Shown here: positions 4,416-31,335 of the stretch, piece by piece
Layout: each line of letters starts with the position of its first letter
How positions within the stretch are numbered: the stretch's first letter is position 1
NCBI GenBank assembly: GCA_945836135.1
Contig: CAMAKT010000002.1
Span: 1-41,134, forward strand
Direction: 5' to 3'
DNA: 41,134 nucleotides
Source: an uncultured Clostridia bacterium
GTDB taxonomy: Bacteria; Bacillota; Clostridia; Lachnospirales; Lachnospiraceae
Translations under genes and position numbers: made by a program
The notes under the pieces: model-generated
Told to the model about the DNA's origin: nothing
Databases searched by the model: none
The model's input: the letters and a program-made list of their open reading frames with translations, nothing else

Positions 4416-6986
4416 TTATGCATTTCTTCCGCAACAGTTCTTATACTTAAGTCCCGAGCCGCAAGGACATGGGTCATTACGCTGAATTTTCTTCGTTTCA
4501 CGCTTGACAGGCGCCTTGACAGCACTGTCATCGCGGTTAGTACCCGTAACCTTGGCAACCTGCTCTCGCTTCTCTGTCTTCTGCTCAACCTTCACATGGG
4601 TAATAAGACGTACCGTATCCTCCTGAATTCTGGATATCATGCTGTCAAACATATCATAACCCTGCATCTTGTATTCAACAAGCGGGTCTTTCTGTCCATA
4701 GGCATTAAGACCGATTCCCTGTCTTAACATATCCATATCATCTATATGGTTCATCCAGTTAGTATCAATGGCACGGAGCAGACATACACGCTCGATTTCG
4801 CGAATATGCTCAGGAACCGGGAATTCTGCTTCCTTCTCCGCATAGAACTTAACCGCGCGCTCCTCCACTGCCTGAACAAGTTCCTTCTTACTGCGATATC
4901 CGTCCTCAACCTTCACAGGCTCGATAGGCACAAGTCTTATGAGATTCTCGTTAAGCTCTGCATAATTCCACTCGGCAGGATCACCGTCGTCATTGATTGA
5001 GTAATCAATATAGCCCTCAATCTTATCCTTCATCATCTTAATTATGTCATTTCGCAGATTCTGTCCGTCAAGCACCTTGCGGCGTTCGGCATAAATAGTT
5101 TCTCTCTGCTCATTCATTACCTGGTCATAATCAAGAAGATTCTTTCTGATACCAAAGTTATTAGTCTCGACCTTCTTCTGTGCTCCCTCAATTGCCTTAG
5201 AAAGCATGCTGTGCTCAAGGCGTTCATTCTCAGGAATCTTAAGAGCATTGAACATGGCCATCAGCTTATCAGATGCAAAGAGACGCATCAAATCATCCTC
5301 AAGTGAAATATAGAAACGTGATTCACCCGGGTCTCCCTGACGTCCCGAACGTCCACGCAACTGGTTATCAATACGTCTCGACTCGTGGCGCTCCGTTCCG
5401 ATAATCATAAGTCCGCCTGCTGCCCTAGCCTCATCATCCAGCTTGATATCAGTACCACGCCCTGCCATATTGGTGGCAATCGTAACAGCTCCGTGCTGTC
5501 CTGCCTGTGCAACAATCTCGGCTTCCATCTCATGGAACTTGGCATTGAGCACATTGTGCTTAATTCCCTGCTTCTTGAGGAGGTTGCTGACCTCCTCGGA
5601 CTGTTCAATGGTAATTGTACCTACCAGGACTGGCTGTCCCTTTGCATGTGCGGCAACAACATCCTCAACCACTGCATGGAGCTTCTCCTTGCGGGTCTTA
5701 TAAATGACATCATCATAGTCAATTCTTGCTATCGGCTTATTGGTTGGAATCTCAATAACATCCATGCCGTATATCTCACGGAACTCTTTTTCCTCAGTAA
5801 GGGCAGTACCTGTCATACCTGCCTTTTTCTTAAACTTGTTAAAGAAGTTCTGGAATGTTATTGTGGCAAGAGTCCTGCTCTCCCTTCTTACCTTAACATG
5901 CTCCTTAGCCTCAATAGCCTGATGCAGTCCGTCTGAAAAACGTCTGCCCGGCATAATACGTCCTGTAAATTCATCTACAATAAGTACCTCATTGTCCTTC
6001 ACCACATAATCCTGGTCGCGGAACATAAGGTAATGGGCACGAAGTGCCAGAATAACATTGTGCTGGATTTCAAGGTTGGCAGGGTCGGCAAGATTCTCCA
6101 GATGGAAGAACTGCTCCACCTTTCTGGTTCCCTGCTCCGTAAGGTTGACTGTCTTGTCCTTCTCGCTGACAACAAAATCACCGGTCTCTTCAAAGCCGGC
6201 ACCCATAATAATATCCATCTTAGATATATCGTCATTGTTGCTGGTTCCCTTTTCAAGCTGTGTTGCAAGAATATCGCACACCTCGTAAAGCTTCGTGGAG
6301 GAATTACCCTGTCCTGAAATAATAAGAGGTGTTCTTGCTTCATCAATCAATACTGAGTCCACCTCATCGATTATGGCATAGTTCAAATCACGCAGCACAA
6401 GGTTCTCCTTGTATACCGCCATGTTATCCCTGAGGTAATCAAACCCAAGCTCGTTATTGGTAACGTACGTAATATCGCACTTATAGGCTTCTCTTCTCTC
6501 CTCCGGCTTCATGCTGTTAAGTACTACGCCAACCGTAAGTCCGAGGAAGCGGTGTACCTGTCCCATCCACTCCGCATCACGTGAAGCAAGATAGTCATTA
6601 ACGGTAATTACATGAACACCCTTACCCTCAAGTGCATTCAGATATGCCGGCAATGTGGCTACGAGAGTCTTACCTTCACCGGTCTTCATCTCCGATATAC
6701 GTCCCTGATGCAGGATTATACCGCCAATCAACTGTACCCTGTAATGTTCCATTCCTATAGAGCGCTTGGCAGCCTCACGTACTGTGGCAAACGCCTCAGG
6801 AAGTATATCATCTAATGTCTCTCCCGCGGAAAGTCTTTTCTTGAATTCCTCGGTCTTAGCTCTTAACTGTTCATCCGTAAGTGCCTGCATAGATGGGCGA
6901 AGTGCCTCAATCTTATCCACAATAGGATAAACTCTTTTGAGTTCATGCTCACTATGCGTTCCAAATAATTTTTGAATGATTCCCAT
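4416..6986 (-). CDS. secA: Preprotein translocase ATPase subunit SecA
   Basis: [13 protein letters not shown] Walker [28 protein letters not shown], and C-terminal SEC-C zinc motif [13 protein letters not shown]. Confidence 0.98.
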
Positions 6987-7071
6987 TGATATTATCTCCT
7001 AAATATAAAAATATACCCAATTATCAGTATTTTAACACCTATAAGGGGTATTTGTAAAGCAGGAATAAAAA

Positions 7072-7096
7072 GTGCCACATCTTCAAGATGTGGCAC
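7072..7096 (-). terminator. Rho-independent terminator downstream of the FecR-like gene
   Basis: Near-perfect inverted repeat GTGCCACATCTT-C-AAGATGTGGCAC, followed on the minus strand by TTTTTATTCCT. Confidence 0.9.
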
Positions 7097-7110
7097 CCTT
7101 CGTTTACAAC

Positions 7111-8229
7111 TTATTTCCAGCTTATGGTAACATCCTCTGTGACAGGCTTAGAAAAATCGTAGTCCCATTCTCCGCTTTGGCTCGGCGAAAGCCGTGGAAC
7201 CGATGCATTCTGCCCTGCTTCAACGGTCTGCGTGCCGAACACTGCCCCCTGATAGGTAAATGTCACCGTACAAGTCTTTGGCTCATCCGTCTCGTCAGTT
7301 GCTGCCTTCGATTCACTCTCTGTACCGGTTTCACTAGTCTCCTGGGTTCCCTCTTCGTTCTTGCTATCGCTCTCTACTTCACTCTGCATCTCCGTTTCAC
7401 TCCGGATTTGCGTTGTCTCTTCAGATGTATCCTCCGTTGTCTCCTCATCGGCGCGTCCGGACAAATTATCAGTCAGCTCCTCTAATTTCTCTACGGTAGT
7501 TCCCGTCAACACTGTTCCGCTTTCTGCAATTTCATGTAAGAAGTTCAATACCTGAACAGGCAGTTCTTCATATTCTATGTTCTGAGGTTCAGACAGATAT
7601 TCTGTTGAATCAGTATCCATGTAAATAATGACCGCCTTTCCGTCTTCAATATATACAGTCATCTCCTGTTGGGTTCCATCCGGAAGAACAAGTCTGCTTT
7701 CTACCTTGCCTTCAAAAGTTGCAACCCAAGTATATACTTCATTGTTTTCATCGTATGTAACTTCAACCCTGAACACGGTTCCGCGAACTGCCATGACTGA
7801 ATTCGGAGTGTTAACATCATATGATGAATCATCGCCCAGCTTGCTCTGAATCTCATTAGTAATTGCCCCCTGTTCAAGTTCAATGGACGTTCTCGACCTC
7901 TCTTTCGTTCCCTCCGCAACAATGGAAAGGATTGAATTTTCTTCCACCATAATATATTTATCATCGTCAAGCTTAAGACGCATATAACTGTCGGCATCGA
8001 CAATAATACGGTCGCCTGATACCAGGTATAAATTTTCGACAGCCGCAATGGAGCCTATACCTTCCCGCTCAATAGCAGCGGTACCCTCAAGTTCATATAT
8101 CTGTATGGAGCGATATGTATCATTCGACTTTGTATAGTTAACAATGATAAAAAACGTAACTGCTGCCAGTGCCACCACCGCTGTTGCAACAATTCCTATC
8201 CATTTTACGGACAATTTATTTTTTTCCAT
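7111..8229 (-). CDS. Membrane-anchored FecR-domain protein with acidic Ser/Thr/Glu-rich linker and a C-terminal bacterial repeat-like domain
   Basis: N-terminal TM (WIGIVATAVVALAAVTFFIIV). FecR-like core: LYLVSGDRIIVDADSYMRLKLDDDKYIMVEENS...VNTPNSVMAVRGTVFRVEV. Low-complexity T/E/S linker. C-terminal TCTVTFTYQGAVFGTQTVEAGQ. Confidence 0.82.
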   Translation of the reverse strand: MEKNKLSVKWIGIVATAVVALAAVTFFIIVNYTKSNDTYRSIQIYELEGTAAIEREGIGSIAAVENLYLVSGDRIIVDADSYMRLKLDDDKYIMVEENSILSIVAEGTKERSRTSIELEQGAITNEIQSKLGDDSSYDVNTPNSVMAVRGTVFRVEVTYDENNEVYTWVATFEGKVESRLVLPDGTQQEMTVYIEDGKAVIIYMDTDSTEYLSEPQNIEYEELPVQVLNFLHEIAESGTVLTGTTVEKLEELTDNLSGRADEETTEDTSEETTQIRSETEMQSEVESDSKNEEGTQETSETGTESESKAATDETDEPKTCTVTFTYQGAVFGTQTVEAGQNASVPRLSPSQSGEWDYDFSKPVTEDVTISWK

Positions 8230-8258
8230 GCAATTATCCTCCTGTTGCTGTATTCTTT

Positions 8259-11200
8259 CTACTGCATCTGAAAATCATAGTCTCCGTCCGTATTGACATA
8301 GAAACTTATGTCGCCATTGTACACCGTATTGTCACCATCCACCTTCCAATTTCCACTTCCGAGCTTGTACTGCTTTCCCCTAAGAAGCGCTTTTACGCCG
8401 GCAGAGTTAATCCCGTCGCGCATCCATATTTCCTCAACCATTACAGAATATGTGGTGGAATTTCCTGCTTTGTCCTTAGCTGTAATAACATATCTGCTGC
8501 CGGAAGATTGGAGTGAAACCGTCGCCGTATTTCCCGAAAATGCAACTGCCTTCCCGTCCACGGTAACAGACGCAAGATTATCATCGGATACCGTAAATAA
8601 CAGCCTATCCGCATAATAAGTCTGCCCATCTTCAATTCCCGAGATGCCGGGCGCAGTCGTATCTATCTTAAGCAGTCCAACCTGAATCGACCTTGTAACT
8701 GCACCGGTGCTTCCTTTCAAATATATAACCGGCTGTGCAGTGTTTTCCACTCTGTATGAGGTCAGGTATTCTCCGTCCATTTGTGTTGATATCAGGTAGC
8801 CATCTGCCGGAACAATGGTGACACCGCTTGTATACCAGTCCTCATTTCCCTTTGTCCCCTGCAAAATATACGGAATATCCGGGGTGGCAATATAGGAAAC
8901 ATTAAAGTCTGCGGTCACCTCCACCGCATGAAAATTCTTAGTCTCGGCAAAGACAGCCTTCACAGTATAGCTGCCTTCCTCCCTAGGAGCCGAAACGCTA
9001 TAGGCAGTATCTGCCTCCCCCTTCTGTTTATAAAAATAAGTCACATTATCTGTTCCGTTGGTTGATGATGAAGCCTCCGGTTTCGGCTCCTCACCAACAT
9101 AATAGTCCGCTACGCTAACGGCTGCACTTCCCTGTATCTTCTCAATCACACCATCCTGGTAAGTCTCGTCCTTTGGTGCAAGATAATATTCCTTAGCTTC
9201 ACCTGTCAGCGTGTACTTAACAGAAATAGTCTTTCCTTCACCTGCATCCGCATTATCATAAGAGGCATCTACCGTAAAGGCTACATCGTCATCCCCGATT
9301 ACTCCCGTAAGTGTTCCTCCGTTTACTGCTGCCGTGCTGCTTCCGTCATAGTTCTTGGTCTTCTCAATACTCAGACCTTCCACCTCAAGCTGCTTTTGGG
9401 TAATGTTCATTTTTACAAGCTGCTTATACTCTCCCCGAGAGCCGTCCATTTTAGTATAGCTGATGCATACCTTGCCCTCGTAGCTGCCAGGCTTCTGGTT
9501 AGGTGCGGCAGTTACCGTATAACTGTAGGTATCTGAACTTCCGCCAAGCAGATTTCTGGCTGCATTTTCGTCCTCCGTAACCACAAATGCCGGATTGTCC
9601 ACTGAAATCCCCGTAATCTTAATATCACCTATATAATCCTTATTGCTGACTGTCTGGCTTATTACATCCGTCTTGTCACCATAGACTGAGGTTCCGAAAT
9701 CAATGTCAGCTCCGCTTTCCATGTATGTGATAGGAACATCCGAGACCAGCAGCTTGGCGGCGTTAAGGTATACATCCTTATCTACTGTCTTTGTAACGGT
9801 GCTGCTTGGATAACCTGTGCCAAACAAGGTCGTAATATTCATACTTTCATCCGCACCGGATATCTTCAGGGCATAGCCCCCGTCCAATGTGGTTTCGATT
9901 GTACTCGAGTTAATAGCGGATGTACCTATTCCGTTGCTGAAGCCTACAGCATATTCATAATCCGTTGATTTGCAGTACAGCCCGCTCATAGTCGTATCCC
10001 CGCCAAGCTGAAAGCATGCCTGACTGCTGCTCTCAACAGTTCCGTTCTTGATGGTCCACGAACCATTCAGTTCAAATGCAGGATTACTGCTGTCGCTACT
10101 GGAAGGTGTATAACTTATTTTGTGGGAAGACAGGTCAAGTGTTCTTCCCTGCATTCCATTAACCACTTCCTCTGTAATCATATCCAGCCCCGTATCAATA
10201 TTCCCTACCGCTTCTATTGTCTTAACAGCATGACAATTCTCCACAGCATTCCTAAGTCCCTCCGGTGTACTTACCTGCGCCTTATATATTGCACTCAGTG
10301 TGGCAGCAGCCCCATCAACCTCTGCATATGCTTTTGCATATGCCTCTAACGAAACATATTCATTTCCCTTACTGTCAAGCCAGCCAAGGAATTCATAACT
10401 GTTTCCATCAGTTATTCTGTCTGTATCAAGCTCCGGTGTAACACCGCTTCCGCTGTTCGTGTATATCGTCCCATCAGTTCCTATGGATACCGGTAATAAA
10501 GAGCATAAGTCTGCATTGTATGCAGCTGTCGCCTCTTCCTCTGTATACTCATATGTCTCCAGTGTAGAGCGTTGTGTATCGAGGCATACCAGTCCGCCTG
10601 CAACAACATTAACTTTATCTACTGTGAATACGGTCGGCTGTCCATTTGAATCATTAAATGTATTATCTGTCAGAACATACCCCTTGGCAAGTATTCCGCT
10701 TCCGATAGTTCCGTCGCCATAATAATTGGTATAATCCCAATTACTTCCGCTCGCTATCATCCTTGCAATTCTGCCATTATATGTTCCACCGGATATGGAA
10801 ACATTGGCATCTTCTATATATTCTCCTATTACAAGGCTGCTTCCAGACTTGGCATTCAAATTAAATTCTCCTCCGGTTATTGTAAGTTCGTTTCCACTTC
10901 CTCCAATATAACAGGCATAGCCATAGCCATTGCTTTCTGAATTTTCTATAGTAAATGTTCCACCATTTATTATTATTTTAGAGCCCTTTGTATCATCTGA
11001 CATAAAGACTGCACCATTAGTGCTTTTTAATTTCGGATTGCCACCTTTTGCACCTATTGTCACGTTACAACTGCTGCCTATTTTAAGCGCAGCCTCATCA
11101 CCTTCAATATATCCTCCTTCAATCTCAAGACTTCCGCCGGTTGTTTCGATTGCAGTTCCATTACTTCCTGTATTAACCAGCTTTCCTTCCCCGGTGCTGC

Positions 11201-11531
11201 TGCCATCCACTATTATAAGTGTACCACTTGACAGGGTAAAAAAACTGTTTCCGGCAAGATTACCGCTTAAGGAATAACCATTCAGATCAATAGTCAGGGT
11301 ATTTGTCCCTGCATTAATAGTATGTGAACTCGTAAGTTCAATATTACCGTTCAGAATTGCCTCTACATCACCACTTTCTAATTGCTTAATAACATTCCCC
11401 AATTCCTCCTCCGTTCTCAAATCCGTTGCGGCCTTAACAATAATCATCCCACTGCCCGGCTTGATAATAAACATTGCCGCAACTGCCACTGCTGTAATAA
11501 GTGCCATCGCCCTTTTTACTCTTTTGTTCAT
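8259..11531 (-). CDS. Large secreted or cell-surface protein with an N-terminal beta-helix-like region and YDG-like repeat
   Basis: Signal peptide-like N-terminus. Many repetitive LTITGGEF / IIINGGTF / VSISGGTY strands. YDGSSTAAVNGGTLTGVIGDDDVAF is YDG-like. No LPXTG sorting motif seen. Confidence 0.75.
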   Translation of the reverse strand: MNKRVKRAMALITAVAVAAMFIIKPGSGMIIVKAATDLRTEEELGNVIKQLESGDVEAILNGNIELTSSHTINAGTNTLTIDLNGYSLSGNLAGNSFFTLSSGTLIIVDGSSTGEGKLVNTGSNGTAIETTGGSLEIEGGYIEGDEAALKIGSSCNVTIGAKGGNPKLKSTNGAVFMSDDTKGSKIIINGGTFTIENSESNGYGYACYIGGSGNELTITGGEFNLNAKSGSSLVIGEYIEDANVSISGGTYNGRIARMIASGSNWDYTNYYGDGTIGSGILAKGYVLTDNTFNDSNGQPTVFTVDKVNVVAGGLVCLDTQRSTLETYEYTEEEATAAYNADLCSLLPVSIGTDGTIYTNSGSGVTPELDTDRITDGNSYEFLGWLDSKGNEYVSLEAYAKAYAEVDGAAATLSAIYKAQVSTPEGLRNAVENCHAVKTIEAVGNIDTGLDMITEEVVNGMQGRTLDLSSHKISYTPSSSDSSNPAFELNGSWTIKNGTVESSSQACFQLGGDTTMSGLYCKSTDYEYAVGFSNGIGTSAINSSTIETTLDGGYALKISGADESMNITTLFGTGYPSSTVTKTVDKDVYLNAAKLLVSDVPITYMESGADIDFGTSVYGDKTDVISQTVSNKDYIGDIKITGISVDNPAFVVTEDENAARNLLGGSSDTYSYTVTAAPNQKPGSYEGKVCISYTKMDGSRGEYKQLVKMNITQKQLEVEGLSIEKTKNYDGSSTAAVNGGTLTGVIGDDDVAFTVDASYDNADAGEGKTISVKYTLTGEAKEYYLAPKDETYQDGVIEKIQGSAAVSVADYYVGEEPKPEASSSTNGTDNVTYFYKQKGEADTAYSVSAPREEGSYTVKAVFAETKNFHAVEVTADFNVSYIATPDIPYILQGTKGNEDWYTSGVTIVPADGYLISTQMDGEYLTSYRVENTAQPVIYLKGSTGAVTRSIQVGLLKIDTTAPGISGIEDGQTYYADRLLFTVSDDNLASVTVDGKAVAFSGNTATVSLQSSGSRYVITAKDKAGNSTTYSVMVEEIWMRDGINSAGVKALLRGKQYKLGSGNWKVDGDNTVYNGDISFYVNTDGDYDFQMQ

Positions 11532-12997
11532 TCCATGCCCTCCTTCAGTGCCTCATCCAGCCAGTCCACCAACCTAAGCTCCAGCTTACCTTCCTTTGCC
11601 ATGCTTCTTAACACTTCAAATGCTTTTGGTCGCGGCATTGGCTTCTTATATGGTCTGTCCACAGATGTCAATGCGTCATAGATATCCGTAACGGTGAGAA
11701 TTCTCGTCTCGATACCAAGTTCTTCCCCTTTAAGATGATTAGGATAGCCTGTTCCGTTCAGGTATTCATGATGGTCTGCTGCCCACTTCGGCACCATGCT
11801 GTAATTCTTGCGGAAATGTACCTTATCAAGAATCTTTCCCGTCATTTCCGCATGGCTCTCCATCTGCTTTCTGTCCTCTGCAGTCAGTGTTCCTTTTCTG
11901 ATGCTTAGGCAGTCCGTCTCTCTTTTAGTCAGGTATGACAGCTCTGTGCCGTCTTCCTTTATGTAGGATTTCTTTGACAGACTCTGCACATGCTCGTAAT
12001 TCTCATCATCAAGAAATCCAACTGTATCAATTCTGCGGATAAAATCAAGTCCATCCTCAAGTTCCCTTATATAATCATCGTATTCCTTCTGCGTGATTCT
12101 GCACTTCAGAAAATCTATTTCATAATACGCTGCAAGCAGCTTAAATCGTTCCTCTATCTGTTCAATGTCCTTGTCAAGCCTCGTTGCTCTGTTCATTATT
12201 CGCAATGGTATTACCATCTTGCCTATATCATGCAATAATGCGGCCAGCAGAAGTTTCTCCTTTCGTTCCTCATCGAAGAATTCCTCACAGTCCCCTGATG
12301 CATGCTTCTTGTTAATGTAATCCGCAAGAATTCCCGAATATTCGGCAACCTTTCTCGTATGCATGCCATTGTAGGGCGTCCTTTCGTCTACGGCTGTCGC
12401 AAATGCAGCCACAAAAGAACGCATCTGTGCCTTCAATTCCTCCACATATGCCAGATTGGTCAATTCAATAGCCGCCATAGAGCTTAATGAGCGTATTGTA
12501 ATATGATACTGTCTGTCAAACGGAATAATCTTTCCATTCTCATCCATTGCATTGATAAGCTGCAGAACACCCAGAAGCTCGTTCTCATTGTTCTCGATAG
12601 GAATAACAAGCATTGACTGTGTATGATATCCTGTAAGGGAATCATATTTCTTTGGTCCGATAAAATCAAACCTGTCACTGTCATAGACATTCGGCAGATT
12701 AACAATTTCCCTGTGAATAGCCGTGTATGCACATACATTGCTCTCCTCCATGGTCACCGGCGGCATATCATTAATCGGTTCTCCATCTGCGCCCCGGCTT
12801 ATGTCCATGGACAATGTCTTCATTATCCTGAATACCAGACAGTTATCCTGATAAAGGTATAGAGTTCCTGCATCACAACCGGTAATCTGCATTGCATTTT
12901 CAATAATGGAAGCAAGCAACTTATTTCTGTCTTTTTCCCTGCATAATTCAATTCCGATATTGAGTATTCGTTCAAAATCCTTGTACTCTAAATTCAT
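11528..12997 (-). CDS. GAF-HD-GYP protein, candidate cyclic-dinucleotide phosphodiesterase
   Basis: GAF-like N-terminus (ITGCDAGTLYLYQDN...SMLVIPIENNENELLGVLQLINA), LLHDIGKMVIP, HHEYLNGTGYPNHLKGEEL. 4-nt ATGA overlap with the 8259..11531 gene. Confidence 0.88.
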   Translation of the reverse strand: MNLEYKDFERILNIGIELCREKDRNKLLASIIENAMQITGCDAGTLYLYQDNCLVFRIMKTLSMDISRGADGEPINDMPPVTMEESNVCAYTAIHREIVNLPNVYDSDRFDFIGPKKYDSLTGYHTQSMLVIPIENNENELLGVLQLINAMDENGKIIPFDRQYHITIRSLSSMAAIELTNLAYVEELKAQMRSFVAAFATAVDERTPYNGMHTRKVAEYSGILADYINKKHASGDCEEFFDEERKEKLLLAALLHDIGKMVIPLRIMNRATRLDKDIEQIEERFKLLAAYYEIDFLKCRITQKEYDDYIRELEDGLDFIRRIDTVGFLDDENYEHVQSLSKKSYIKEDGTELSYLTKRETDCLSIRKGTLTAEDRKQMESHAEMTGKILDKVHFRKNYSMVPKWAADHHEYLNGTGYPNHLKGEELGIETRILTVTDIYDALTSVDRPYKKPMPRPKAFEVLRSMAKEGKLELRLVDWLDEALKEGME

Positions 12998-13018
12998 TTT
13001 TTTACCTCACCCTGCCTG

Positions 13019-13801
13019 TTAAAATGGATAAACATGGTGTTTTCTCATGTAATCTAATGATTTTTTCTGTGCTTCGTAACCTTTAACCTCAACAAGCACC
13101 GTGGAATCAATACCATAACGCCGTATCAGCACATCAAATTCCTTCCAGTCAATACTGCCGTCCCCGACCGGCAGATGTAAATCATTCTGTAAATCATTAT
13201 CGTTGATGTGCATATGCCGTATATAAGGAGCCAGAGCCTTGACCCACTCCTCCATCGGGCGGTTCTTCACCGCTCCATGTGCATAGTCAAGACATATACC
13301 GAAGTTGTCCACCACACTCATGGATTCTGCAAGCCCGGCAAGCTCATCCGGCGCATCATCAAACATATTCTCCATGAAAATCTGCTGTCCGGGATATTCC
13401 CCCGCAAGCTCCGTAAAGAAGCGCACATTCTCTTCCTTCCAGTGCTTAAGGTAGTAAGCTACTCTGAAACCGCCCAGCAGTCCCGTGTGAAAAATAATGC
13501 CCCTTAATCCCATGCGCTTTGCAATTTCCATGGACTGACGTATTCTCTGTTCGGAAACCTGACGTATGAGAGAATCCTCGCTGTGTATATATGTATCCAA
13601 AAATGCCCCATGCATGGTATCCTTGGAGAAATCAGTCCTGTACCCTGCATAATGCTCTATTATTTCTTCCTGCTTTCTTCTGTCGTCTAAGACCTCCGGT
13701 TTCCAGAAATCATTGTACTCAAAGGCTGCATCATATTCTTTTATTAGACTTACCGACCTAGCTGTATCCTGTCTGTCAGGAATTATATAAATCTGTCCCA
13801 T
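13019..13801 (-). CDS. Sugar phosphate isomerase/epimerase-like TIM-barrel protein (xylose isomerase-like / AP endonuclease 2 superfamily)
   Basis: IIFHTGLLGG, IFMENMFDD, FGICLDYAHGAVKNR, IRHMHINDNDLQNDLHLPVGDGSIDWKEF. Start moved to ATG 13801. Confidence 0.8.
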   Translation of the reverse strand: MGQIYIIPDRQDTARSVSLIKEYDAAFEYNDFWKPEVLDDRRKQEEIIEHYAGYRTDFSKDTMHGAFLDTYIHSEDSLIRQVSEQRIRQSMEIAKRMGLRGIIFHTGLLGGFRVAYYLKHWKEENVRFFTELAGEYPGQQIFMENMFDDAPDELAGLAESMSVVDNFGICLDYAHGAVKNRPMEEWVKALAPYIRHMHINDNDLQNDLHLPVGDGSIDWKEFDVLIRRYGIDSTVLVEVKGYEAQKKSLDYMRKHHVYPF

Positions 13802-13927
13802 CAACGCCTCACTTATCTTTGATTACATTATCCAACTGATACATTCTCAAGCTACTTTGATTTTACAACAAAAAAATACAACATGCAATCTTAACACAGC
13901 GGTGTTTCAAATGAAAATATATTTCAA

Positions 13928-13960
13928 CGGCTGAAGGCTATTATACATAGCCTTCAGCCG
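13928..13960 (-). terminator. Strong hairpin, probable terminator of the DUF2935 gene
   Basis: 14-bp perfect stem CGGCTGAAGGCTAT-TATAC-ATAGCCTTCAGCCG. The minus-strand tail TTGAAATATATTTT is moderately U-rich. Confidence 0.7.
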
Positions 13961-13984
13961 TATCATTATCCATAGAAGGGTATT

Positions 13985-14911
13985 CTATTTTTCAGTTGCC
14001 GGAACCTCTTTCAGTAGTCTGAGATAGTGATTAGCTTCCCTCAGCACATGGTCCGCCAGAAGCGGAAGAATCAGTCCTGCAATACTGAATTCGGTAATTC
14101 CCTTAGTCCCTGCCGCCTTAAAATCCCTGTAGCGCTCCGTCTCCTTAAGGCTTTTAATGCTTAACTCTCCGGTAGCCATGCAGTCCTTTTCCTTTGCTTC
14201 CTTAAGCAGTGCTTTATATTCATCCGCAAAATTGTCTGCCGTGTCAATCAGGTTCTCCTCCGTAGGGTCAAGAAGCCCTCTGATAAACAGTGCATGCTCC
14301 ATCATAATCCTGTTCCAAAAATTCTCCATTTCAAGAACGCTCTGTCCATCCAGAGTCCCTCTCCTCTCAAGTTCCGCTATCATCCGTCGGTACAGACCTG
14401 CTTCCCGTAGAATATGCTCTACCAGCAGATGATAATTGAAGGTAAATAGACAGCATTCCGCCATATCTTTTAGAACCTTTTCCTTAAATTCCATCAGACC
14501 GTCCGTCAGGCGCAATGCTTTTCTGTTTATCTGTCTAACAAGCTGAGCAATTCTGCGGTTTCTTTCATCCCTGCATCCCGACATGTCTTCCTGTGCTAAC
14601 GCTTTCTCCTGTGCCGTAATCCTGCTGTCAATTTCAATTCCAGTAAGAAAGCTCGTCCTGCGCTCCGCATCAAATGTATATTCTGTAACAATTTCTCCCG
14701 AGGAAAGAACATTATTGCCCACTCTTCCCCTGGCAAGCTCCACAACCTCACGAAGTAACTCCTCAAACTGCTCCCTGAACCAGTCCGCTCTCTTAATATA
14801 GTCCGCATTTTTTGCCGGGAATCCCGCCATCAGAAATAATGAATGTTCCTTCATTATTCTTCCAAAAAACAGATGGGTTTCCAATGACAATGATACATAA
14901 TCTCCAATCAT
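13985..14911 (-). CDS. DUF2935-family, all-helical protein with two repeated domains
   Basis: Two repeats: SLETHLFFGRIMKEHSLFLMAGF... and EMENFWNRIMMEHALFIRGLLD..., typical of the DUF2935 family. Confidence 0.78.
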   Translation of the reverse strand: MIGDYVSLSLETHLFFGRIMKEHSLFLMAGFPAKNADYIKRADWFREQFEELLREVVELARGRVGNNVLSSGEIVTEYTFDAERRTSFLTGIEIDSRITAQEKALAQEDMSGCRDERNRRIAQLVRQINRKALRLTDGLMEFKEKVLKDMAECCLFTFNYHLLVEHILREAGLYRRMIAELERRGTLDGQSVLEMENFWNRIMMEHALFIRGLLDPTEENLIDTADNFADEYKALLKEAKEKDCMATGELSIKSLKETERYRDFKAAGTKGITEFSIAGLILPLLADHVLREANHYLRLLKEVPATEK

Positions 14912-15031: not shown

Positions 15032-15565
15032 CTAATCAAGTTCCGGTTCAATGAGTCCGTAGGTATTGCCCTTTCTCTTATATACGACATTGACTTCACC
15101 CGTCTCCGCATTGGAGAACACATAGAAGTTATGTCCAAGGAGTTCCATCTGTATGCACGCCTCTTCCGGGTCCATCGGCTTGATGCCGAATCTCTTGGAA
15201 CGAACAATCTTAATCTCTGCCTCTTCTTCATATTCATTATCTATGTAGTCCTTAGTAAATGAAGACGATGCATTCTGCTTGGACTGAATAATCTTATTCT
15301 TATATTTCTTGAGCTGGCGCTCAATAACCTCCTCAACTAAATCAATGGATACATACATATCCGAACTCGTCTGCTCTGAACGGATAATGCTTCCCTTGAC
15401 AGGTATCGTAACCTCAATCTTCTGTCTCTCCTTCTCGACACTGAGTGTTACGTTCACGGAAACATCCTTGTCAAAATACTTCTCAAGCTTGCCAAGCTTA
15501 TTCTCAACTGCACTTCTTAACCCCTCTGTGACATCAATGTTCCTTCCAGTAATAGTAAAACGCAT
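15032..15565 (-). CDS. hpf: Ribosome hibernation promoting factor, long form
   Basis: MRFTITGRNIDVTEGLRSAVENKLGKLEKYF N-domain; C-terminal VRSKRFGIKPMDPEEACIQMELLGHNFYVFSNAETGEVNVVYKRKGNTYGLIEP. Confidence 0.96.
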   Translation of the reverse strand: MRFTITGRNIDVTEGLRSAVENKLGKLEKYFDKDVSVNVTLSVEKERQKIEVTIPVKGSIIRSEQTSSDMYVSIDLVEEVIERQLKKYKNKIIQSKQNASSSFTKDYIDNEYEEEAEIKIVRSKRFGIKPMDPEEACIQMELLGHNFYVFSNAETGEVNVVYKRKGNTYGLIEPELD

Positions 15566-15728
15566 ACTACCAACTCCTTTACCCTATAATCTATCAGATA
15601 GCATCCAGAATTAATATATCAACTCATTAATTGTGCAAATATTTACTATCTAATATGTAAATATTATATCATATATCTGTAAATTTTCAAGCATAAGATA
15701 CATTATTCTATTAACTTTGTGTGAACAA

Positions 15729-15757
15729 TCTATAAACATTAATTATTTATTTGTCAA
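15729..15757 (-). promoter_or_regulatory. Candidate vegetative promoter for hpf
   Basis: Minus strand TTGACA (15757-15752), 17-nt spacer, TATAGA (15734-15729). Would give a leader of about 155 nt. Confidence 0.45.
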
Positions 15758-15864
15758 TAGAAAACGCCCATTTTTTTGTCGAAAAATGCAATTTATTAGA
15801 ACTTCACAAAACATTTTTTCGTGTTATCATGTATGAAATTGTGTTTTTCCACCACACAATTTAA

Positions 15865-15966
15865 TGTGGATAATGTGGATAACTTGGTGTATAAGTAAAA
15901 AACTCCATAAAATGGGCATTATTCAATGTGGATAAGTTCGTGGACAACTGGAGTTTTTGTGGATAA
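15865..15966. promoter_or_regulatory. DnaA-box cluster: four perfect TGTGGATAA boxes plus two degenerate ones
   Basis: Perfect boxes at 15865-15873, 15874-15882, 15927-15935 and 15958-15966. Degenerate: GGTGTATAA 15886-15894 and CGTGGACAA 15939-15947. All in the same orientation with AT-rich flanks. Confidence 0.9.
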
Positions 15967-16076
15967 CTATTTTGTCCCTTTTCATAGTCTTACATATTTT
16001 TTATGCAGATTGCACAAATTGTATCTTAATTTACTCATATTATACATAACATATTATGTTAATCGGTACTAAATAC

Positions 16077-16982
16077 CTATTGAAGATACTTTTCCACCGA
16101 CGCTACGGCATTGGCACCATCGGCAGCGGCAGTGACAATCTGTCTGAGCTGCTTGGTTCTGATGTCCCCGGCTGCGTACACACCCCTGATATTGGTACAA
16201 CAGTCCTCGGCGGCAATAATATAGCCTGCTTCATCCCTTGCAACAGCCTCGTCAATATATGCCGTCACAGGCTGCATGCCAACCGCAAAGAATACACCGT
16301 CAACCGCAAGCTCATTTCGAGCATCCGTCTTTTTATTTCTTAAGGCAACCGACGATACCTTATTTTCTCCCTTGACCTCCTCCACAACGCTGTCAAGCAC
16401 GAATTCTATATTCTCCGCCTGCCGAGCCTTGGAGACAAGGCTTTTCGCCGCACGGAACTCATTCCTGCGGTGGATGAGATACACCTTCCTGCACAACCTT
16501 GACAGATAAAGTGCATCCTCTAATGCTACATCACCACCACCTACCACTGCCGTCACCTTATTGCGAAAGAACGCTCCATCGCAGGTAGCACAGTATGATA
16601 CACCTCTTCCCGCATATTCCTCCTCACCCTTGACTCCCGCTTTGCGGTGTACGGCTCCTGTGGCAATAATAATGCTTCTGCTCTCATAGGTATTCTTTTC
16701 GGTGGTTACGCTTTTTATGCTTCCCTCAGCCTTCATAGAGAGCACATTCTCCGTCACAAATCTCGTTCCAAGCGTCCTTGCGTGTTCGGCAAACTTCGTT
16801 CCAAGCTCAAATCCGCCAACCCCCGGGAGTCCCGGGTAATTATCCACATCACTTGTAGTAAGTACCTGTCCTCCGGGCATCATGCTTCCCTCTATTACAA
16901 TAAAATCAAGTTCGGCTCTCGCCGCATAGATGGCTGCCGCCGTGCCTGCAGGGCCACCTCCTATAATAATTAAATCGTACAT
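16077..16982 (-). CDS. trxB: Thioredoxin-disulfide reductase
   Basis: MYDLIIIGGGPAGTAAAIYAARAEL FAD motif, YCATCDGAFF redox CxxC, GVYAAGDIRTKQLRQIVTAAADGA. Start at ATG 16982 with AAGGAG RBS. Confidence 0.95.
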   Translation of the reverse strand: MYDLIIIGGGPAGTAAAIYAARAELDFIVIEGSMMPGGQVLTTSDVDNYPGLPGVGGFELGTKFAEHARTLGTRFVTENVLSMKAEGSIKSVTTEKNTYESRSIIIATGAVHRKAGVKGEEEYAGRGVSYCATCDGAFFRNKVTAVVGGGDVALEDALYLSRLCRKVYLIHRRNEFRAAKSLVSKARQAENIEFVLDSVVEEVKGENKVSSVALRNKKTDARNELAVDGVFFAVGMQPVTAYIDEAVARDEAGYIIAAEDCCTNIRGVYAAGDIRTKQLRQIVTAAADGANAVASVEKYLQ

Positions 16983-17106
16983 TCCCTTTCTCCTTAACAT
17001 AAATAAAATTTTCGATTGTAAATCTAACTCTTTTTACTTAAAATATTAAACATGGGTAGAAGAATTTCTCCCTAATATTATTACGTTCTTCAAGAATGGA
17101 GCAATT

Positions 17107-26480: not shown

Positions 26481-29312
26481 TCATAAATATTTCTTTAAAA
26501 ACTGTCCTGTATAGGACTTCTCATTCTTCGCTATCTCCTCGGGAGTGCCCTGTGCAATGACAGTTCCGCCGCCCTCTCCGCCTTCCGGTCCTATATCTAT
26601 AATATAATCTGCCGTCTTTATGACATCCAGATTGTGTTCTATGACAACCACCGTATTACCACTGTCCGACAGCTTTCTTAAAATATCCACAAGCTTATGG
26701 ACATCGGCAAAATGAAGCCCCGTTGTCGGCTCATCCAGAATATAGATTGTCTTACCCGTTCCGCGACGGCTTAACTCAGTAGCAAGCTTAATTCTCTGTG
26801 CCTCGCCGCCGGACAACTCCGTGGAAGGCTGTCCCAGACGTATATATGACAAGCCCACTTCATTCATAGTCTCAATCTTCCTGCGAATACTCGGAACATT
26901 CTCAAAGAATTTCACAGCCTCCTCCACAGTCATATTAAGAACATCATAAATACTCTTACCCTTATATTTAACCTCAAGTGTCTCACGATTATATCGCTTG
27001 CCACCGCAGACTTCACAAGGCACATATACATCCGGCAGGAAATGCATCTCAATCTTGATGATTCCGTCACCACCGCAGGCTTCACAGCGTCCGCCCTTCA
27101 CATTGAAGCTGAAACGCCCCTTGGAATAACCTCTTGCCTTGGCATCTGAAGTCGATGCAAACAAATCCCTGATAAGGTCGAATGCACCAGTATATGTGGC
27201 AGGGTTGGAACGAGGTGTTCTTCCTATAGGTGACTGATCAATGGCAATAACCTTGTCAAGCTTATCAATTCCAATAATATCATCATGCTCGCCCGGTATT
27301 GTTCTTGCACGGTTCAAGTCTCTTGCAAGCCTCTTATACAGGATTTCGTTCACAAGGCTGCTCTTGCCGGAGCCCGATACACCTGTCACACAGGTAAATA
27401 TGCCAAGAGGGATATCAACATCTATATTCTTAAGATTATTCTGTCTGGCTCCCTTAATTGTAAGCCAGCCGGAAGGCTTGCGGCGTTCCTCCGGAACAAG
27501 TATCTTCCTTCTTCCGCTAAGATATGCCCCCGTAATGGAGTTCTCGTTCTTCATAATCTCTTCCGCTGTACCTGTGGCAATCACCTCACCACCATGCTCG
27601 CCTGCTGCCGGTCCGATATCCACAATATAATCCGCTGCCCTCATGGTATCCTCATCATGCTCAACCACAATAAGTGTATTTCCAAGGTCACGAAGTCTCA
27701 TAAGTGCAGAAAGAAGCTTATCATTGTCCCTTTGATGAAGTCCTATGCTCGGCTCATCAAGGATGTACGCTACCCCTACCAGCCCTGAACCAATCTGTGT
27801 TGCAAGACGTATTCTCTGTGCCTCACCTCCCGACAGTGTCCCTGTAGCTCGTGATAGTGTAAGATATTCAAGTCCCACATTAACCAGAAAACCAAGCCTT
27901 GCCTTAATCTCCTTCAGAATCTGTTCTCCTATGGTCTGCTGCATAGGTGTCAATGTAAGCTGTTCAATAAAGTCTCTCAGCTTCACTATGGACATATTAG
28001 TCATCTGATAAATATTCAGACCTCCAACCGTAACAGCAAGGGAAGATGCCTTAAGTCTCTGTCCTTTGCAGACCTCACATGGTGTAATCTTCATAAATGT
28101 CTCATATTCCTGCTTCATGGTATCGGAGCCGGTCTCGCGGTAACGCTTCTGCATGTTGCGTATCAGTCCCTCAAATGCAACATCATACACGCCCTCACCC
28201 CGCTGTCCGCGGTAATGCACCTTCACGGTATGTCCTCCCGTACCGTTAATCAAAATATCCTTCACCGAATCAGGATAGTCCTTAAACGGAACGTCAAGCC
28301 TGAAATTATATTCCTTTGCCAGAGCTGTCAGGAGTGCTCTTGTAAAGCTTCCATCGTCTGTGGATGACTGCCAGCCGATTGCTGCAATGGCACCCTCATC
28401 AATACTTAACCTCTTATCCGGAATAATCAAGTCAATATCGAACTCCATCTTGTAACCAAGACCGAAGCACTCAGGGCAGGCACCGAATGGATTGTTGAAG
28501 GAAAAACTTCTCGGCTCCACCTCTTCCACACTGATTCCACACTCAGGGCAGGCAAAACTCTGACTGAAATTAAGCATCTCACCATCATTAACATCAATCA
28601 TCAGCAGGCCTTCGCCAAGGCTTAATGCATTCTCAACGGATTCTGTGAGTCTCTTCTCCATACCCTCCTTAACTGATAGACGGTCAACGACTATTTCTAT
28701 ATTGTGCTTCTTATTCTTTTCAAGCTTTATCTCCTCTGTGAGTTCATATATGATACCGTCTACTCTGACACGCACATAGCCGCTTTTCTTGGCACCCTCC
28801 AATACCTTGACATGCTCGCCCTTTCGGCCTCTCACCACAGGCGCAAGCACCTGAAAGCGTGTTTTCTCAGGCATGGACATAATCTGGTCAACAATCTGGT
28901 CAACAGACTGCTTCTTAATCTCCCTTCCACACTGCGGACAGTGAACTATGCCTATTCTGGCATACAGAAGACGCATATAGTCATAAATTTCGGTAACTGT
29001 ACCCACGGTAGAACGTGGATTACGGTTGGTAGACTTCTGGTCTATGGAAATAGCCGGCGACAGTCCATCTATGGTGTCCACATCCGGCTTCTCCATCTGT
29101 CCCAAGAACTGTCTGGCGTATGACGAAAGCGACTCCATATAGCGTCTCTGCCCCTCAGCATATATCGTATCAAATGCCAACGAAGACTTACCGGAGCCGC
29201 TGACACCTGTAAGCACAGTAAAGGAATCTCTCGGTATATCCACATCAATTCCCTTGAGGTTGTGCTCCCTGGCTCCTCTTATTTTGATATAATTTCTCGA
29301 ATACAATGCCAT
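26481..29312 (-). CDS. uvrA: Excinuclease ABC subunit A
   Basis: [65 protein letters not shown]; two ABC cassettes and CxxC zinc motifs. Confidence 0.99.
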
Positions 29313-29314
29313 CT

Positions 29315-31297
29315 CTATTCCTCCAGCATACTTTTCTTAATCTCAATAATCCTGTCACGAAGCTCTGCCGCTGTCTCGAAATCCAGCTCCGCCGCAGCCT
29401 TATGCATACGCTTATTCAATTCCTTGAGCAGCTTCTCAAGCTCCTGCCTGCTCATTGATTCAATATCCTTCTCCATATCAGCCTTCGGCTCACTTGCCGC
29501 CTTGGAGATTGCTATAAGGTCACGGACAGCCTTCTTGATTGTCGTCGGTGTAATGCCGTGTTCCTCATTATATCTCTGCTGTATCTCACGACGGCGGTTG
29601 GTCTCATCAATGGCATTCCTCATGGAATCGGTAATGACATCGGCATACATAATAACCCTTCCGTCCGAATTACGGGCTGCCCTGCCGACAGTCTGTATAA
29701 GAGAAGTCTCGGAACGCAGGAAACCTTCCTTATCCGCATCAAGTATGGCAACAAGTGTAATCTCAGGTATATCCAGTCCCTCTCTTAACAGATTAATTCC
29801 CACCAATACATCGAATACGTCCATTCTCATATCACGGATAATCTCAGCACGTTCCAATGTATCAATATCCGAATGAAGATATCTGACTCTGATTCCGACC
29901 TCCTTCATATAGTCGGTAAGGTCCTCCGCCATTCTCTTGGTGAGTGTGGTAATCAGCACCTTATTGTGCTTCGCAACCTCCTTGTTGACCTCACCGATAA
30001 GGTCATCAATCTGTCCTTCCACCGGCTTAACCGTAATCTCCGGGTCAAGAAGTCCTGTCGGTCTGATAATCTGCTCAGTCCTCATAAGCTCATGCTGTGC
30101 CTCGTACTCAGACGGTGTCGCCGAAACAAACATCATCTGGTCAATCTTAGCCTCAAACTCCGTAAAATTAAGCGGTCTGTTGTCAAGAGCGGAGGGCAGA
30201 CGGAAGCCGTAATCCACCAGTGTAGTCTTCCTTGAACGGTCTCCGGCATACATGCCTCTTATCTGCGGTATCGTGATATGTGACTCGTCCACAATAATCA
30301 AAAAATCCTCCGGGAAATAGTCAATCAGTGTGTAAGGTGGTGTCCCCGGTGCAAGCCCTGCAAGATGCCTTGAATAATTCTCTATTCCCGAACAGAAGCC
30401 CGTCTCAAGCATCATCTCCACATCAAAGCTCGTCCTCTCCTGTATTCTCTGAGCCTCCAACAGCTTATCCTCGCTCTTAAAATAAGCCACTCTCTCCTTC
30501 ATCTCCTCACGGATATTGGCAGCCGCCTCCACAAGTTTCTCCCTTGGAACCACATAATGGGATGCAGGAAAAATTGCAATATGTGAAAGCTCCGCCTTCT
30601 TCTCTCCGGTGAGTACATCTATCTCCGTAATTCTGTCAATCTCATCCCCAAAGAACTCAACTCTCACTGCGCGGTCCGTGGATGCTGCCGGAAATACCTC
30701 CAGCACATCTCCTCTCACCCTGAAGGAGCCTCTCTTAAAATCCATATCATTCCTTGTATACTGATTGTCCACCAGTTTACGTATAATCTCATCACGGTCC
30801 TTCTCCATCCCCGGTCTTAAGGACACAACCATGCTCTCATAGTCCACAGGGCTTCCCAGACCATATATACAGGACACACTGGCAACAATCACCACATCCC
30901 TGCGCTCCGAAAGTGCTGCCGTAGCCGAATGACGAAGCTTGTCTATCTCATCGTTAATTGAAGAATCCTTCTCAATATAGGTATCCGTGGAAGGCACATA
31001 AGCCTCCGGCTGGTAATAATCATAATATGACACAAAATACTCCACCGCATTCTCAGGGAAAAACTCCTTCATCTCACCATAGAGCTGTCCTGCAAGGGTC
31101 TTATTATGCGCAATAATCAGTGTAGGCTTATTAAGCGCCGCAATAACATTCGCCATGGTAAAGGTCTTGCCGGAGCCTGTAACACCCAGCAAAGTCTGAA
31201 ACTGGTTGCCTTCCTTGAATCCCTTGACAAGAGCATCTATAGCCTGTGGCTGGTCCCCCGTCGGGGCGTATTCCGAATGCAAAACGAATTTATCCAT
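29315..31297 (-). CDS. uvrB: Excinuclease ABC subunit B
   Basis: [66 protein letters not shown]-terminal UVR motif. Start at MDKFVL. Confidence 0.98.
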
Positions 31298-31321
31298 AAT
31301 AATCCTCATTTCCGTCTTTTC

Positions 31322-31335
31322 CAAACATACGTTCT
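31322..31335 (-). promoter_or_regulatory. LexA-type SOS box upstream of uvrBA
   Basis: Minus strand AGAACGTATGTTTG matches the Firmicute consensus CGAACRNRYGTTYG at 13 of 14 positions. A TATACT -10-like element lies at 31347-31342. Confidence 0.8.

Follow-up and report, generated by a model that had tools for sequence, protein, structure and literature searches.

Within the 41,134-nucleotide stretch of DNA analysed here (the window), a 511 bp gap (15566-16076) separates hpf from a trxB-like gene. The gap is 73% AT compared with 56% for the window, in agreement with the AT-rich gap of roughly 510 bp described in the initial annotation, and Pfam domains confirm the two flanking genes, both transcribed on the minus strand. 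A 102 bp segment contains four perfect copies of the predicted DnaA box TTATCCACA, two of them abutting, together with two degenerate boxes, all in a single orientation on the minus strand; a sequence check confirmed the box positions first reported. The features of the region are:

15032-15565, minus strand: hpf, encoding a long-form hibernation promoting factor (PF02482, PF16321), neighbour and possible target
15663-15690, minus strand: probable core promoter of hpf, TTGAAA-N16-TATAAT, identified by eye
15752-15757, minus strand: conserved TTGAC(A) block, 55 bp past the LexA-like motif
15791-15946, minus strand: segment aligned to positions 8-162 of the 164-position element profile R1 (80.9 bits, E 1.3e-22, this copy being one of the 51 R1 training sequences, aligned as A1)
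15803-15821, minus strand: conserved non-DnaA motif CGAAAAAATGTTTTGTGAA, LexA-like, with one mismatch in the left half (GAAA for GAAC)
15865-15873, minus strand: perfect DnaA box TTATCCACA, second member of the abutting pair
15874-15882, minus strand: perfect DnaA box TTATCCACA, first member of the abutting pair
15886-15894, minus strand: first box of the core triple, degenerate TTATACACC, in 12-bp register to the pair
15927-15935, minus strand: perfect DnaA box TTATCCACA, 53 bp before the abutting pair, at a conserved spacing
15939-15947, minus strand: degenerate DnaA box TTGTCCACG
15958-15966, minus strand: perfect DnaA box TTATCCACA, the outermost
16077-17000, minus strand: trxB-like pyridine nucleotide-disulphide oxidoreductase gene (PF07992), upstream neighbour

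Downstream of hpf and on the same strand is secA (4416-6986; region 4416-14911), with genes for a FecR protein, a 1090-aa YDG-domain protein, a GAF-HD protein, a sugar-isomerase-like protein and a DUF2935 protein lying between them; hpf and secA adjoin in many relatives. The hpf promoter in the window is sigma-A-like, unlike the sigma-H-like promoter (AGGATTATT...GTAGAAT) seen by eye in two other Clostridia families (L323, L331, L332, L333).

The box cluster is one end of a ~215 bp element, in which a perfect box, a triple array, a LexA-like site (GAACRNNYGTTTTGT) and the TTGAC block follow one another toward hpf. The initial annotation recognised the cluster but missed the LexA-like site, the TTGAC block and the family-wide status of the element. 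The triple array has the form TTATACACn-nAG-TTATCCACA-TTATCCACA, with a 3-bp spacer before the abutting pair, and in most copies the pair starts 53±1 bp past the first box; other spacings are near 43, 64 and 75 bp, approximately one helical turn apart, with additional groups at 87-88 and 97-98 bp. The non-DnaA motif, GAACRNNYGTTTTGTGAA-N8-AAA, is 49-53 bp from the pair, and the distance from motif to TTGAC is 54-56 bp in 40 of 50 copies and one turn less (43-45 bp) in eight. The early suggestion that the boxes lie on one DNA face thus holds across genera, for box to pair (mostly 53±1 bp) and for motif to TTGAC (55 or 44 bp), and the spacings mostly vary by whole helical turns, which argues, by inference, for one shaped nucleoprotein complex. 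Identification of TTGAC as a canonical -35 hexamer is unsupported, as a consistent -10 is absent downstream in the copies examined.

Absence of the array from close relatives had been named as evidence against the proposal, and the element is instead well conserved. We examined 150 genomes of the window's family (Lachnospiraceae, judged by named loci), and R1 has strong matches in 118 of them, although some of these copies are training sequences and the count includes phylogenetically non-independent genomes. As a rule there is one strong copy per genome. Among the 118, 64 copies are upstream of hpf, on the same strand and 77-383 bp away, and the other 54 are away from hpf with comparable scores. 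Of the 150 genomes, 143 yielded an hpf gene, and the array is absent at about half of the family hpf genes. Where it is present upstream of hpf the architecture is the same in many genera, with almost all perfect boxes oriented toward hpf. The gene before the element often encodes an NlpC/P60 protein or is trxB, in both hpf-linked and hpf-free copies, and the next gene after hpf-free copies is mecA, a WecG/TagA-type gene or others.

The association with hpf extends beyond the family. When named genomes were searched for the core triple, at least 80 loci emerged; among those listed, somewhat under half have a same-strand hpf downstream, and the remainder are by other genes, incomplete, or from other groups. 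Lachnospiraceae make up most of the named matches listed (Butyrivibrio, Roseburia, Blautia, Anaerostipes, Anaerobutyricum, Hungatella, Enterocloster), and other Clostridia, Paenibacillus and one Listeria are also represented. R1 matches are directly upstream of hpf in 44 of the 147 matches listed (family members included), where 0.03 are expected, and about 14 families beyond Lachnospiraceae have such a match among those listed. Finally, in 44 other genomes that were not selected for the array, the triple register is present upstream of hpf in ten, in one orientation, and in none of the control stretches or shuffles.

There are informative departures from this arrangement. One example is the sister species G001, one of the 54 with an hpf-free copy, in which an insertion sequence (IS) with a DDE transposase and matching inverted ends sits after the TTGAC block (L143, L003). 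Movement of hpf to another place is ruled out by the junctions, which show that the IS inserted between the intact element and hpf; hpf has thus been separated rather than lost, and the likely core promoter is still beside it. In a second group (G186, G152, G272, G418, G242, G399, G360, G191) an R1-like array on the hpf strand is 2.4-3.8 kb upstream of the gene, an arrangement that would fit insertion of genes into the interval. As judged from the genomes compared, the linkage to hpf is old (about 15 families among the matches listed) but dispensable, since it spans many families and yet there are intact hpf-free copies.

This pattern bears on the proposal that DnaA controls hpf, for which the old linkage speaks and the intact hpf-free copies do not. 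DnaA bound 200-400 bp upstream would repress or activate the hpf promoter and so tie ribosome hibernation to replication status, and DnaA does act as a transcription factor in B. subtilis (PMC4447404). The 64 family genomes with a same-strand array immediately before hpf, the recurrence of such arrays in the further families, and the unselected sample, in which all arrays point toward hpf, are all consistent with it, and the depth of the linkage keeps the proposal alive. However, hpf control is evidently not required, because nearly half of the family copies have no hpf beside them; moreover, the distance to the hpf start is variable, an IS intervenes in G001, and many hpf genes have no array. 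Control of hpf by the element is therefore possible, although we regard it as doubtful that this is the chief role of the array.

The non-DnaA motif is conserved in its own right. Among 106 copies picked by the box array and the right half of the motif only, 99 have a left half matching GAAC with no more than one mismatch (5.5 expected), compared with 14 of the 384 GTTTTG words that these loci contain outside the motif; the match to GAAC is exact in 39 of the 106. The right half is near-invariant and longer (GTTTTGT). The lexA promoter boxes of the window's family are CGAACATATGTTTG, with a spacer preference as in the element motif, and C. difficile LexA sites are GAAC....GTTT (PMC4234289). 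The score of typical lexA boxes is reached by nine of 135 motif copies and 33 are within 4 bits of it, with none in controls. Both lexA and dnaA are absent from the window's own fragmented MAG, but there is a canonical SOS box, GAACGTATGTTT, where the uvrB-uvrA pair is annotated to begin (31323-31334, minus strand; uvrB 29315-31324, uvrA 26481-29312), which suggests that the organism has LexA. From the left-half excess, the family lexA boxes, the C. difficile sites and the uvrB box, we consider the motif to be LexA-like. A DnaA box hidden in the motif (GTTTTGTGAA) is ruled out by the low conservation (55%) of the required G. In two other families (L333, L334) the site is a perfect palindrome, ACAAAACAGGTGTTTTGT, which would fit a dimeric binding protein and not plain GAAC. 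The long near-invariant right half, the inexact left half, the few high scores and the mismatch in the window argue against LexA as the sole binder.

One reading of the site is a DnaA control element with a damage input. LexA, or a dimer resembling it, would be bound at a fixed helical phase and gate the DnaA complex outside oriC, so that DNA damage would be coupled to initiation control and, where the element is hpf-linked, also to ribosome hibernation; we put this forward tentatively and think it unlikely. It is rather improbable that the element is a locus of the datA/DARS type, in which a phased complex would change the nucleotide state of DnaA by hydrolysis or exchange with the help of an accessory DNA-bending protein. 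The rigid, phased, non-coding layout with accessory motifs resembles such loci, and whether B. subtilis has one is stated to be unknown (PMC13220808), but no IHF is known in B. subtilis, the best-studied relative (PMC13220808), and phasing is also expected from simple cooperative binding. A further proposal is an SOS-controlled promoter region, with the LexA-like box governing a transcript (a small RNA or leader) and the DnaA boxes co-regulating it. DnaA and LexA do act together at E. coli uvrB, and the site is present in nearly all of the copies tested, but neither the TTGAC block nor the motif is followed by a consistent -10 element and the gene after the element differs between genomes, so that we consider a promoter of this kind very unlikely.

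Since dnaA is missing from the fragmented MAG, chromosome positions were taken from 17 relatives with dnaA and the element on one contig; contigs were treated as circular where dnaA is at the start, and distances were obtained by subtraction. In all nine of these relatives that have an hpf-free copy (G084, G145, G036, G138, G085, G033, G039, G006, G102), the copy is 33-182 kb from dnaA, and the hpf-linked copies are 196 (G426), 334 (G370), 389 (G342), 421 (G285), 443 (G350), 688 (G391), 791 (G174) and 985 kb (G046) from it. All 17 (33-985 kb) are thus in the origin-proximal third of the replichore, and the element is co-oriented with the fork in 15, the exceptions being G046 and G391.

These positions bear on whether the cluster is itself an origin, main or secondary. 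It has DnaA boxes inside an AT-rich gap, and the same triple occurs in a dnaA-dnaN-like gap (L174). However, the latter has DnaA-trios and none follow the box pair in the element copies examined; the dnaA loci of the family bear their own DnaA-box clusters; and dnaA does not adjoin the element in the relatives but lies elsewhere. That no dnaA is visible near the cluster is correct for the window but uninformative by itself, as dnaA is missing from the fragmented MAG, and the relatives decide. The initial annotation was right that there is no leading-strand switch, the GC skew being uniformly negative along the window, and in G046 the only sign changes of the skew are at dnaA and in the 3.0-3.3 Mb interval, with no switch at the element (985 kb). 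Its argument against the main oriC is therefore borne out, its suggestion of a non-canonical origin is not, and we regard an origin of either kind as ruled out by the skew, the trios and the separate dnaA loci. Random clustering in DNA of 73% AT is the least credible explanation and is also ruled out, as the base composition of the 511-bp gap gives a probability of 5e-11 for four or more perfect boxes, the element is kept across genera, and, with 72 perfect boxes in the whole 2.75-Mb assembly, this is the sole place with four together (~3e-8 such clusters expected per genome).

We favour, with moderate confidence, a DnaA-sequestering or regulating element near the origin, of the B. subtilis cluster kind, with a LexA-like protein as its modulator. 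The class best supported is a DnaA-box cluster outside oriC, given the conservation, the origin-proximal position and the separate oriC at dnaA, and the element in 118 of 150 family genomes, its fixed, phased spacing and the 54 hpf-free copies with equal profile scores all speak for DnaA control. Since a rigid cluster recurs across many gut Clostridia away from the origin, the element near hpf probably serves as a conserved DnaA switch or sink. A plausible sequence of events is that ATP-DnaA would nucleate at the abutting pair and spread cooperatively across boxes on one DNA face, and that the resulting complex would hold DnaA and may alter its activity. Being near oriC, the element would be copied soon after initiation, and retention of DnaA at the duplicated element would thereby limit re-initiation, as the B. 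subtilis DnaA-box clusters do. Whichever dimer occupies the LexA-like site (LexA or another) would modulate the DnaA complex, and any effect on hpf transcription would be secondary or lineage-specific. Two points weigh against this reading: pure titration leaves the old hpf linkage unexplained, and a sink would be expected to have more than four to six boxes unless binding is highly cooperative.

On our best reading, what is new is a DnaA-box cluster of a familiar kind in a new place, with a fixed architecture and a LexA-like accessory site. A DnaA-box element before hpf does not seem to have been described, although this is judged from searches of the open-access literature, which found no relevant report of DnaA boxes with hpf or in Lachnospiraceae, so prior description is possible. 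Restraint of DnaA in Clostridia is poorly known, and according to a 2026 review (PMC13220808) it is not known whether even B. subtilis has regulators of DnaA nucleotide-state switching; the element is a small candidate locus found family-wide, and its fixed architecture lends itself to simple direct tests. Through the LexA-like site there is a testable path by which DNA damage could affect initiation, and through the old hpf linkage one by which replication status could affect translation shutdown.

The element shares features with several known systems. It has the same tandem-box triple as the basal unwinding part of dnaA-dnaN origins (e.g. L174), but is without the GC-rich stretch and DnaA-trios after the pair, adjacent dnaA and dnaN, or a skew switch. 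It resembles the LexA/SOS boxes of Clostridia in its GAAC-N4-GTTT half-sites and in the spacer preference of the family lexA promoters, and differs in its longer, near-invariant right half (GTTTTGT), a left half that is often one mismatch off and the absence of a recognisable promoter. Like E. coli datA, DARS1 and DARS2, it is a small non-coding DnaA-box locus outside oriC with a putative accessory protein site, but all of its boxes point one way.

DnaA-box clusters near other genes are also seen in this comparison. One, also conserved, is between murC and dnaD-like/dnaI-like replication genes (L144, L145, L148-L156). In most of these loci the gap has two abutting TTATCCACA pairs separated by ~155-176 bp, with the first pair located at the stop codon of murC. 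In the window's genome, two perfect boxes lie upstream of the dnaD-like gene, on the expected contig and side (G000:C38:10982-11034). Another is in Paenibacillus (L178, L201, L207, L221, L222, L224), in which the same triple array is beside an ABC-F gene, with tsaD (gcp) beyond it in L178, as at the B. subtilis gcp/ydiF cluster.

The closest parallel is with B. subtilis, which has eight high-affinity DnaA regions, two of them oriC and one between gcp and ydiF (PMC4447404), and whose clusters outside oriC are in the gcp/ydiF, sda-yqeG, ywlC, ywcI-vpr, yydA and trmE regions. Removal of six DnaA-box clusters advances initiation (PMC5295017, PMC13220808), and it is because the element is closest to these clusters that sequestration or regulation of DnaA is favoured. 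The window likewise has good predicted DnaA boxes clustered outside oriC more tightly than chance would give. In both cases there are tandem, high-match, intergenic boxes outside oriC, mostly origin-proximal and some upstream of genes, and the same triple array is present at gcp/ydiF in Paenibacillus. The element differs in being at another locus (hpf, or NlpC/P60 neighbours), and in having one fixed, phased architecture family-wide with conserved LexA-like and TTGAC sites.
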